A DNA stretch of 61,960 nucleotides from Fusobacteriaceae bacterium (GTDB lineage: Bacteria > Fusobacteriota > Fusobacteriia > Fusobacteriales > Fusobacteriaceae). The first letter of the stretch is position 1; every line of letters starts with the position of its first letter. The stretch is from contig JAISTB010000038.1 in NCBI GenBank assembly GCA_031272775.1, forward strand, positions 1-61,960, given 5' to 3'. Under the pieces are notes generated by a model. The model saw only the letters and a list, made by a program, of their open reading frames with translations, was not told the origin of the DNA and made no database searches. Position numbers and translations under genes: made by a program. Positions 8,220 to 11,290 of this stretch are shown here, in pieces.

Positions 8220-9644
8220 TCATCCGAACAAATCCTGCATCGTGACTTCCGACTGCGCGAGGTAGGCGTATTGGTTTCGCTTGACGCCATAAGTCGTCAC
8301 AAACGTCATATGAAGGCCTTTCCGGGTTTTTGTCTCTTCGGCAAAAGCCCGGATTTTTGCTTCAAGACGTTCCGCGTAACTTTTGTCGATCGCAAATTCC
8401 CGAAGGGCGTACTTGATCTCACAGAGATTGATGATATGATCGGCCCGGTCGATCACGAGGTCGATCTGCGCGCCCGGGGCATAGTCGCCGTTACCGTTAC
8501 TTCGCCAAGCTGACGTATTGGCGACGACGCCGGCGATGCCGAGGGCTTTCCGGATCTGCTCCTCATGGGCGAGACAAACCAGTTCAAAAGCATACCCGCG
8601 CCAGGCGTTTTGGCTGCCGGCGCTCAGGCTTTTCGCCCAAAACGCAGCGTCGTTGTTTCCGCCTTCCGCGAGAAAGCGGCGCCAAAACAGGGTGAAGGGA
8701 TCCGTGAGCTGATAGAGCGCGCCCCTGCTTTTTTTGGCATAACCGTGGTACTTGCGGATAAAGCCGCTGGATTCCAGCTCATCGAGAACTTTTGTCAGCG
8801 TCCCGCCGTCGGGTAAATTCGCCACCGAAACGATCTCTTCCCTCGGGAGACCCGATAATTTTCCCGCAAGGGCCGTGACTATTTTCCGATGGTTTTCGTC
8901 ATTTTTGAACAGTGTCTTATAGAGCACCTGATATTCGTCTTTCAAAGGGGCGTTCTCTCCGAAACAGAGAAAATCCACATTTTGCGCAAGCCCGTAGTCC
9001 GGGCGGAACTGATCGAGATAAAAGGGAATGCCGCCGAAAATCATATAGGCTTCGACGATCTGATAGCGGTTCAGCACAATGTGACGCGAGTGGAAAAATG
9101 CCTCGCATTCCGCCAGCGTAAAGGGCTTGAGGGCCATTCGCCGCGTCACGCGGTTGAAAAGTCCGCCGGTATTTTCAAACAGCTTTTTCACAATCCAGGA
9201 CGTCGCCGACCCGCAGGCGATCAAAAACACGTCCGGCCGGGCCGAAGCGAAACTGTTCCAGAAATATTCCAGCGCGGACAAAAAGCCGGACGCGCGCGTA
9301 TCCAACCACGGCATTTCATCGATAAAAATGACTTTGCGGCCCGGGGATTTGGCGGTTTTGATCAGCTGTTCCAACTGGAGGAAAGACTCCAGCCAGTCAT
9401 TTTTTTGCGGGTAGGGTGTTTTACCGTATTTATTCAGGGCAATGTTGAACATTTGCAGCTGTTCCTCTTTGCTTCCGTCAAAACGGCCTGTGCAATAAAA
9501 CGCAAAGCGGTTCCTGAAAAATTCCTTGATTAAAAATGTCTTGCCGACTCTTCTCCGGCCATAAACAGCTAAAAATTCGGGCTTTCCGGATTCCATATAG
9601 CTTGTAAGCGCCTTGATTTCCTGCTTTCTGCCGATTATCTCCAT
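8220..9644 (-). CDS. AAA ATPase with C-terminal DUF234 nuclease-like domain
   Basis: A 474-residue protein of the archaeal-type STAND-like ATPase family. The N-terminal half has Walker A (GRRRVGKT, about residues 29-36) and Walker B (KVIFIDEMPWLD). A winged-helix region follows. The C-terminal DUF234 part carries a PD-(D/E)xK-like pattern (QIDLVIDR then CEIK). The cellular role of this family is not known. Its promoter lies between two inverted repeats with the same half-site, suggesting tight regulation, possibly by its own product. The next upstream gene on the same strand is another AAA ATPase. Confidence 0.85.
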   Translation of the reverse strand: MEIIGRKQEIKALTSYMESGKPEFLAVYGRRRVGKTFLIKEFFRNRFAFYCTGRFDGSKEEQLQMFNIALNKYGKTPYPQKNDWLESFLQLEQLIKTAKSPGRKVIFIDEMPWLDTRASGFLSALEYFWNSFASARPDVFLIACGSATSWIVKKLFENTGGLFNRVTRRMALKPFTLAECEAFFHSRHIVLNRYQIVEAYMIFGGIPFYLDQFRPDYGLAQNVDFLCFGENAPLKDEYQVLYKTLFKNDENHRKIVTALAGKLSGLPREEIVSVANLPDGGTLTKVLDELESSGFIRKYHGYAKKSRGALYQLTDPFTLFWRRFLAEGGNNDAAFWAKSLSAGSQNAWRGYAFELVCLAHEEQIRKALGIAGVVANTSAWRSNGNGDYAPGAQIDLVIDRADHIINLCEIKYALREFAIDKSYAERLEAKIRAFAEETKTRKGLHMTFVTTYGVKRNQYAYLAQSEVTMQDLFG

Positions 9645-9662
9645 CGGGGGTCCTCCGAAAGC

Positions 9663-9698
9663 CAGCGCTAAGTGGTATAAAAAATATAGTTAGCGCTG
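9663..9698. promoter_or_regulatory. Dyad downstream of the DUF234 ATPase promoter
   Basis: CAGCGCTAA (9663-9671) and TTAGCGCTG (9690-9698) are perfect inverted arms. They lie between the predicted transcription start and the ribosome binding site of the ATPase gene. The half-site CAGCGCTAAGT nearly matches the arms of the dyad at 9794. Confidence 0.7.
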
Positions 9699-9723
9699 AG
9701 TTCTCTGAATTGCTCTTACGGAT

Positions 9724-9752
9724 ATTATAGGGCAAAACGGCTTAAAAGTCAA
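9724..9752 (-). promoter_or_regulatory. Promoter of the DUF234 ATPase gene
   Basis: On the minus strand TTGACT (9747-9752) and TATAAT (9724-9729) are 17 bases apart. The promoter sits between the dyads at 9663 and 9794. Confidence 0.8.
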
Positions 9753-9793: not shown

Positions 9794-9831
9794 TCAGCGC
9801 CAAGTCACTTTTTGAAGGTACTTGGCGCTGA
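9794..9831. promoter_or_regulatory. Dyad upstream of the DUF234 ATPase promoter
   Basis: TCAGCGCCAAGT (9794-9805) and ACTTGGCGCTGA (9820-9831) are perfect 12-base inverted arms around a 14-base spacer. The half-site differs from the 9663 dyad by one or two bases. The two dyads lie roughly 130 bases apart on either side of the promoter. Confidence 0.7.
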
Positions 9832-9869: not shown

Positions 9870-9878
9870 AAGAAGGGT

Positions 9879-9902
9879 TTTTCGACCTCAAAGTCTGAAA
9901 TT
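9879..9902. repeat. Flanking copy of the ATPase repeat
   Basis: TTTTCGACCTCAAAGTC occurs here, just beyond the stop of the DUF4143 ATPase gene, and again at about 11179-11195, upstream of its promoter. The two copies bracket the gene in direct orientation. Confidence 0.65.
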
Positions 9903-9904
9903 TT

Positions 9905-11128
9905 TCATTCCTGCAAAAAGTCAAGCAGATTCTTAACCTCTATGCCCTCATAGGAATTCACAAAACTCCGGTCCATGGTCAGGATGACTTTGCGGTAATT
10001 GTCCTTTGCGCTTTGGAGCGAAAAGATCTCCCGTTTTCTTGTGCCTTCGTCCCGGATACTTTCCGAAACCTGATAATAGATTTTCTCATCGGGTTTGACC
10101 GCTATAAAGTCTATCTCCGTCTCGCCGACCTTTCCGACGGACACGTCATATCCTCTTCGCCTCAATTCGAAATAGACGATGTTTTCCAGCAGATATCCCC
10201 GATTGACGTCCCGATATCCCAAAAGGATGTTTCGGATGCCGGTATCTACGATATAGTATTTATCCAGCGTTTTTAAATACTCCTTCCCCCGGATGTCATA
10301 GCGGGGAACGCCGTAAAAAATATAGGCGCTTTCCAGGGCTTCAATATAGGAAGAAATCGTCTTGCCCGCAGGAGGTTTTGTCTTTCCCCCGATCTGGAGT
10401 TCCTTTTCCCGAACAAAGGCGTTTCCAATGCTGTTGGGAGAGACAAGGCTCCCGATATTATCCGCGAGGAAGAGAACCAGTTTTTGCAGCAGGCGCTGAT
10501 CACCGACGGCGTTCCGCTCCACGACGTCCCGCAAGACAATCGTGGAATAGATTCCTTCCAAAACGGGATTGATTTGATCCTGCGCAAAATTGTACTGAAC
10601 AATCCCGGGCATACCGCCATACTTCAGATAGGATTCGAATTTTCGTTCCATCCCTGCGTCGGACTCAAAATCATTGAAATCCAGAAATTCTTTGAAGGAA
10701 AGCGGATACATTTTGATCTCCACACAGCGTCCGCCCAGCATTGTGGCAAAGTCCGAAGACAGCAGGCGGGAATTGGAACCGGTGATGTAAATATCCGCCG
10801 GGAAGTCCACCCGAAATGAATCTATGGCTCTGGCCCAATTCTCTACCATCTGGACTTCATCCAGAAGAATGTAATGCTTTTCCGTTCCCGATATCAAGGC
10901 GGAAACGGCGCGGTACAAATCCATGTAGTTTTGAATATGCGAAAAACGCAGAGACTCAAAATTCATCCGGATGATCCTTGTTTCGGGGACTCCGCTTGCG
11001 AGCAGATATTCGACAAACAATTCCAGCAACGAAGATTTGCCGCAGCGTCTGACGCCGGTGATGATTTTGATTTCTTCTTTATCCTTGAAGGATTTCAGGA
11101 CGGAAAGATAAGCGTCTCTCGCTTTCAT
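9905..11128 (-). CDS. AAA ATPase with DUF4143 domain
   Basis: A 407-residue ATP-binding protein of the AAA_14/DUF4143 type. Walker A is TGVRRCGKSS (about residues 24-33), Walker B is HYILLDEVQ, and a sensor-like ITGSNS follows. The C-terminal DUF4143 domain ends with a degenerate nuclease-like pattern (EIDFIAV, then QVSES where an active enzyme would have ExK). The function of this common family is unknown. It has its own promoter with a 39-base repeat array directly upstream, and a further copy of the repeat lies just past its stop codon. Confidence 0.87.
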   Translation of the reverse strand: MKARDAYLSVLKSFKDKEEIKIITGVRRCGKSSLLELFVEYLLASGVPETRIIRMNFESLRFSHIQNYMDLYRAVSALISGTEKHYILLDEVQMVENWARAIDSFRVDFPADIYITGSNSRLLSSDFATMLGGRCVEIKMYPLSFKEFLDFNDFESDAGMERKFESYLKYGGMPGIVQYNFAQDQINPVLEGIYSTIVLRDVVERNAVGDQRLLQKLVLFLADNIGSLVSPNSIGNAFVREKELQIGGKTKPPAGKTISSYIEALESAYIFYGVPRYDIRGKEYLKTLDKYYIVDTGIRNILLGYRDVNRGYLLENIVYFELRRRGYDVSVGKVGETEIDFIAVKPDEKIYYQVSESIRDEGTRKREIFSLQSAKDNYRKVILTMDRSFVNSYEGIEVKNLLDFLQE

Positions 11129-11145
11129 ACAATCACCTCAACCTG

Positions 11146-11174
11146 AGTATACGCTTTTCAAGGGAGAAAGTCAA
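11146..11174 (-). promoter_or_regulatory. Promoter of the DUF4143 ATPase gene
   Basis: On the minus strand TTGACT (11169-11174) and TATACT (11146-11151) are 17 bases apart. The -35 box lies within an AAAGTC-AAGAACTTTT dyad that belongs to the upstream repeat array. Confidence 0.8.
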
Positions 11175-11290
11175 GAACTTTTCGACCTCAAAGTCAAAAA
11201 CTTTTATTTTTTATAAATTTCTGACTTGGAAGCCAAAAACTTTTATTTTTTTGAAATTTCATACTTTGAAGTTGCAAAATTTTTATTATA
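11167..11290. repeat. 39-base degenerate tandem repeat array
   Basis: Three units start near 11184, 11223 and 11262, giving a period of 39 bases. Each has an AAAGTC-type box, then AAAAACTTTTATTTTTT and an AAATTTC end. The first unit contains the small dyad AAAGT-N5-ACTTT, and a further AAAGTCAAGAACTTTT lies at 11167-11182. Units 2 and 3 diverge from unit 1. The last unit supplies the final codons of thpR. Confidence 0.7.

Follow-up and report, generated by a model that had tools for sequence, protein, structure and literature searches.

The repeats upstream of an AAA_14-DUF4143 ATPase gene in a bacterium of the Fusobacteriaceae are very probably operators of the gene that they precede, and the STAND-type protein encoded by this gene would bind its own promoter and autoregulate. 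Among homologues from many phyla, a 26-bp dyad, AGTTTT-N14-AAAACT, adjoins the -35 box of the gene's own promoter. The operators, their privacy to individual genes, their phasing to the promoter, and their co-variation with one residue of the predicted recognition helix are all apparent from comparison of the sequences. On these grounds, two readings of the repeat that the initial annotation had listed separately, as an autoregulatory operator and as a site recognised by the ATPase, become a single and well-supported one. The AAA_14-DUF4143 proteins are a very common bacterial family of unknown function and are often listed as virus-defence candidates; the private operator provides a concrete proposed ligand for this family, namely the promoter of each member's own gene.

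The window gene, its promoter and its operators

The window, by which we mean the whole stretch of 61,960 nucleotides that was analysed, contains the following relevant features:

8220..9644, minus strand: ATPase_2-family gene (PADLOC PDC-S27), found in 1/61 related genomes (the window's own)
9662..9699, minus strand: second copy of the 38-bp dyad private to the ATPase_2 gene, located between the -10 box (9724-9729) and the start codon of that gene
9794..9831, minus strand: 38-bp dyad private to the ATPase_2 gene, on the upstream side of the promoter
9877..9902, minus strand: downstream operator copy, just past the stop codon of the AAA_14-DUF4143 gene; the next ATPase gene follows ~235 bp downstream
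9905..11128, minus strand: AAA_14-DUF4143 ATPase gene, 407 aa (Pfam AAA_14 5.6e-33, DUF4143 5.7e-16)
11146..11151, minus strand: -10 box TATACT, after a 17-bp spacer
11169..11174, minus strand: -35 box TTGACT, with its first base at operator coordinate 29
11177..11202, minus strand: O1, putative proximal private operator, AGTTTT-TGACTTTGAGGTCG-AAAAGT on the gene strand
11216..11241, minus strand: O2, putative private operator, 39 bp upstream of O1
11255..11280, minus strand: O3, degenerate putative private operator, 39 bp upstream of O2 and conserved in a sister species (L099)

A 39-nt repeat occupies positions 9876-9914, 11176-11214 and 11215-11253, and a third upstream unit is located at 11255-11280. 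Along the gene strand, the units have the dyad form TTTTTGACTT-NN-AAGTCNGAAA with centres 39 bp apart, and each contains GACTT-NN-AAGTC with T and A tracts on its flanks. Three dyads thus lie upstream of the gene and a fourth just beyond its stop codon. This arrangement, as originally described from the sequence, is real, and its direct repeat exceeds chance, with none of 150 dinucleotide shuffles reaching it (p 0.007, the floor of the test). O1 terminates just ahead of the promoter TTGACT-17-TATACT. An AAAGTC-N5-ACTTT dyad had been placed across the -35 box; a GACTT half-site does lie inside this box, whereas the true proximal dyad is the GACTT-NN-AAGTC at 11177-11202. O3 falls within the reading frame of the adjacent LigT-like gene, at its last codons and 3' end (11243-11280).

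It is evident that the repeat is private to this locus, as the initial annotation had proposed. Within the 2.09-Mb genome, the dyad occurs with at most two mismatches in three places, all of which flank the AAA_14-DUF4143 gene, while the fourth window unit, the distal O3, is more degenerate and falls outside this set; a genome-wide repeat family is thereby ruled out. The string TTTTCGACCTCAAAGTC is found exactly only at 9879 and 11179 of the window, with one place elsewhere in the genome at a single mismatch.

By its profile matches, the encoded protein is a member of the AAA_14-DUF4143 family, as it scores 114.1 bits for AAA_14 (PF13173, curated cut-off 27) and 59.1 bits for DUF4143 (PF13635, curated cut-off 28.1). 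The PADLOC profile PDC-S01 matches residues 2-406 of 407 with an E-value of 6.5e-154, although the profile library gives no cut-off for PDC-S01. Searches of NCBIfam and of PDB sequences with the protein returned no significant relative. In its AlphaFold2 model (pLDDT 91.9), a nucleotide-binding, a helical, and a winged-helix domain follow one another, the latter with predicted helices at 211-223, 231-240 and 255-267; the last of these is the predicted recognition helix, with K256 as its second residue. Structural matches over residues 1-309 include 2qen (Z 17.6), 2fna (Z 17.5), and the NLR, CED-4 and Apaf-1 cores (~15-16), and the protein is, by its predicted fold, a STAND-like ATPase. Among 69 aligned members, the Walker A residues G25, G30, K31 and S32 are kept in all, as is E91 of Walker B, while D90 is kept in 68.

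The C-terminal domain presents a different picture. The PD-(D/E)XK-like motif residues E315, E338, D340 and Q353 are present in 69/69 aligned subfamily members, whereas residue 355, the position of the motif lysine in (E/D/Q)-x-K, is A, T, S or C in every one of them. Cutting by a nuclease of the window subfamily is doubtful because residue 355 is without a lysine, and the nuclease-like domain may be inactive. Its assignment to the PD-(D/E)XK fold is based upon the motif and upon the accessible part of PMC12988326 rather than upon a fold match. In several other DUF4143 proteins of the window genome, an E-x-K can be seen by eye in the translations at this motif.

A shared operator plan with private letters

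Relatives of the window protein are present in 14/31 related genomes, and our homologue set consisted of the best 80 of at least 586 relatives from a scan of named genomes. The AGTTTT-N14-AAAACT plan was first spotted by eye and then tested. Among the 53 operators that pass the score threshold given below, positions 3-6, 12, 15 and 21-24 are conserved. The outer A/T tracts are common to the homologues; the inner bases vary by gene and yet remain palindromic. Positions 8 and 9, for instance, carry 0.18 and 0.04 bits and are nonetheless mirror-complementary in 89-92%. Because this last figure is inflated by selection on palindromy, we used an anchored test, in which only the outer scaffold letters were matched and the inner 14 bp counted as palindromic with at least 5/7 pairs. 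The test was positive for 34 of the best 80 homologues, 8/26 relatives and 0/16 genes of the window's own genome, compared with 12/377 control upstreams and 91/2440 shuffles. When the threshold was a combined score of 11 or more, 41/80, 10/26 and 2/16, respectively, passed, compared with 6/377 control upstreams and 19/1220 shuffles. The phasing to the promoter is similarly regular, with a -35/-10 pair having its first base at operator position 26-29 in 41/53 genes (shuffled tails: mean 13, maximum 18). The dyad is often repeated every 39-40 bp upstream of the homologues, and copies are spaced 39 or 40 bp apart in 21/24 pairs.

This plan has its limits. About half of the best 80 homologues score under the strict threshold, and most genes beyond the window's subfamily lack the 26-bp scaffold, although other private repeats are found there. 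Homologous loci without these repeats had been named at the outset as a result that would speak against a gene-specific repeat. The closest homologue, L105 (63% identical), is such a locus, with a best score of 7.8 and no recognisable operator, whereas many others keep the architecture and differ in its letters. A blind scan of 391 genomes with the window-type core pattern, allowing one mismatch, returned 8 distinct sites in 8 genomes, of which 4 immediately precede a homologous ATPase gene (1 new locus and 3 already in the homologue collection). Since the reversed-pattern control yielded more total matches than the real pattern, it is the location of these sites and not their number that lends support. 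The remaining matches comprise three sites elsewhere and an orphan two-unit array with a -35 box at ~1440-1560 of L333, where no ATPase gene is near; this array may be what remains after the loss of a gene. Phage DNA was also considered as the operator target and rejected, as strict operators were found in 0, 1, 0 and 0 viral contigs, a result that covers near-perfect operator sites only. The single viral match lies inside a long ORF beside similar long ORFs, which are probably phage structural genes.

The privacy observed at the window locus extends to the homologues. Recurrences of a gene's own operator number 76 in the 300 bp upstream of the genes (15.5 kb in total) and 8 in ~355 kb elsewhere, whereas the operators of other genes give 2.8 matches in the same near-upstream DNA. 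Of the 8 elsewhere, one is the operator itself, out of place because the ORF start of L117 is over-long, and another is the downstream copy of the window. As far as the sequences show, each of these genes has a private operator.

The window genome contains 17 DUF4143 matches, 16 of which have a usable start and entered the paralogue repeat test; the 17th, a fragment that lacks a start, was left out. A significant direct repeat is present in the 200 bp upstream of 10/16 paralogues and 4/60 controls (lowest attainable p 0.007), and a direct or inverted repeat in 13/16 and 8/60, respectively. The letters of the repeats differ per gene, while their period tracks the subfamily: 39-40 bp in three genes, including that of the window; 23 bp or its double in another three (L031, L032 and L036, on contigs C39, C3 and C14); and 32-33 bp or its double in three more (L026, L029 and L030, on C34, C40 and C35), with a longer array in L029. 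At L031, L032 and L036, the 23-bp tandem direct repeats reach the promoter and likewise have letters of their own. Broken or shortened DUF4143 copies were encountered at C5:79087, C20:59499 and C5:163640 (L034, L039 and L040), which we regard as a sign of rapid turnover. Private operators may also exist in a second ATPase family, since the 38-bp dyad of the neighbouring ATPase_2 gene (PDC-S27) occurs in the window genome, at up to three mismatches, only at 9662-9699 and 9794-9831.

Residue 256 and the operator core

For a training set of 49 genes less than 75% identical, each protein column was scored by its mutual information with the operator core. Column 256 ranked first of 397 with an excess of 1.46, the next column having 0.79 (mean 0.105, sd 0.163), and it also ranked first of 396 when the operators were chosen by their outer letters only; all of these co-variation figures are inflated by shared ancestry. 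It is the base at operator position 8 that shows its strongest co-variation with residue 256. G8 accompanies Lys, Arg and His in the training table and C8 accompanies Asp, while Glu is mostly paired with C8, Asn mostly with T, and Pro mostly with A at this position. Exceptions to the rule are Glu256 in the TVYNY subfamily and Gln256.

The rule was then applied to a held-out set of 84 new homologues less than 75% identical to any training protein (67/110 plus 17/22). Operators at a score of at least 10.2 were present in 30 of these, 24 of them non-redundant, and the base was predicted correctly for 31/48 half-sites, or 31/42 among those whose residue occurred in the training set. None of 20,000 permutations did as well, and column 256 again ranked first, in this case of 391. 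At a threshold of 11, the prediction held for 20/32 half-sites, column 256 ranked 4th of 394, and 8 of 20,000 permutations were as good. Nearest-pair contrasts, for which 44 of 51 pairs were counted (the rest being at least 95% identical), also showed agreement between residue class and base (Fisher p 0.0017), although column 256 ranked only 11th of 407, because many columns change with divergence. Judging from the combined comparisons, the letters of an operator go with the recognition helix of the protein that its gene encodes, with the pair contrasts providing the weaker part of the evidence. The distance from position 8 to its mirror is 11 bp, approximately one helical turn, as would be expected for a dimer. 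Such a partial recognition code is testable by the swap of one residue or one base.

Proposed mechanism, alternatives and comparison with known systems

Based upon these features, we infer physical binding of the operators, a dimer, autoregulation and its sign, and a role for ATP, and the following model can be proposed. A dimer would dock on the 26-bp dyad with one recognition helix in each of two successive major grooves, where the shared A/T flanks could serve all subfamily members and the variable core (positions 8-10 and their mirror) would be read partly by residue 256. With copies 39-40 bp apart, several dimers would line up beside the -35 box and control their own transcription; this autocontrol is most likely negative and probably dependent upon the nucleotide or oligomer state. 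The cores differ between paralogues, which would thus not have to interfere with one another in one cell.

The sign of the autoregulation could also be positive, with a dimer beside the -35 box recruiting RNA polymerase to create a self-amplifying switch, and the position of the operator, which adjoins the -35 box and leaves the -10 box uncovered, would suit such a role. However, many of these promoters have near-consensus -35 and -10 boxes and should therefore have no need of an activator, and we consider positive control possible but do not favour it. A bolder proposal, and one we think unlikely, is that the operator is itself the sensor: the inactive STAND ATPase would sit as an array on its own promoter, and a phage or stress that strips, degrades or transcribes this DNA would free the protein for a change of nucleotide state, oligomerisation and action. 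If this were true, the separate core codes would let many independent tripwires coexist in a genome, which would explain the many copies per genome (17 matches here).

It is also conceivable that the gene is a mobile or homing element, in which the ATPase and its nuclease-like domain would recognise the array and the downstream copy in order to move the gene. Besides the downstream copy itself, the recent history of the locus is consistent with this. Over its first 243 bp, the gene shares 99% identity with that of a sister species (G001:C135, L099), whereas the two adjacent upstream genes align in blocks that are mostly 71-90% identical, the operator array is 89% identical with the drop in identity inside it, and two other DUF4143 orthologue pairs of the same two species are only 80-83% identical. 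To judge by these identities, the window ATPase gene was recently transferred or replaced, with a boundary near the array, and the accessible part of PMC10782964 names COG1373 among genes shared by transfer. The LigT-like neighbour is present in 5/31 genomes, and of the other four only G001 is close; no clean empty site was found among the 31 genomes, and the far boundary of the transfer is unseen because the G001 contig ends inside the ATPase gene. Nevertheless, an operator copy within 300 bp downstream is found for 1/53 comparable genes, that of the window only, so that bracketing is not the rule, and the initial descriptions of a gene bracketed by its repeat and of a possible insertion trace are not supported as general features. 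A transposon or insertion element, with repeats at both gene ends as a rule, was rejected on the same count. Together with the strict phasing of the operator to the promoter and the missing motif lysine in 69/69 aligned members, this makes a homing function improbable. As a separate observation, a perfect second operator-core copy lies 964 bp past the gene at L119.

A dyad beside the -35 box would suit any repressor, and another regulator might in principle bind the operators, with the ATPase gene a mere target; this is quite improbable, as the core letters differ per gene and correspond more closely to the recognition helix of the gene's own product than to other parts of this ATPase. Chance repeats in A/T-rich intergenic DNA can be dismissed for practical purposes, since, even though the flanks are A/T tracts, neither shuffles nor control upstreams reproduce the pattern and the repeat is locus-private genome-wide.

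Autoregulation through private operators can be set beside several known systems. PDC-S01, COG1373 and AAA_14-DUF4143 proteins are phage-defence candidates, and the window protein is a member by sequence. In the accessible part of PMC12988326, PDC-S01 is an ATPase fused to a PD-(D/E)XK domain and was found by "guilt-by-embedding". Its genes are counted there at roughly 39,000, it is ranked fourth in frequency among the defence systems of prokaryotes, and most PDCs still await validation; this part of the account makes no mention of private operators or self-recognition, and the accessible part of PMC9252829 no mention of PDCs. For the window ATPase, the defence role is a label that marks an unproven candidate. 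No description of operators or self-regulation of AAA_14-DUF4143 ATPases was found in the literature searched, to which subscription journals did not belong.

The order of nucleotide-binding, helical, and winged-helix domains is the same in the archaeal proteins 2QEN (PAB2304) and 2FNA (SSO1545) and in the NLR, CED-4 and Apaf-1 cores. In the STAND proteins of animals and plants, the winged helix serves protein contacts. Unlike those of NLR, CED-4 and Apaf-1, the winged helix of the window ATPase appears to keep DNA recognition, which suggests that a domain best known from immune and cell-death switches here reads DNA. Orc1/Cdc6 proteins (2qby, 2v1u) also combine AAA+ and winged-helix domains and bind DNA repeats; their sites, in the accessible accounts, are replication origins, whereas those of the window family would be gene-specific promoter operators. 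Toxin-antitoxin repressors and the C proteins of restriction-modification systems are autoregulated with private operators. RepA similarly autorepresses individual repABC operons, according to the accessible part of PMC4492784. Toxin-antitoxin repressors, C proteins, and plasmid RepA thus resemble the window family in having a self-encoded operator that avoids cross-talk, but they differ from it in that the window family would combine DNA reading, a STAND ATPase and a nuclease-like domain in one protein.
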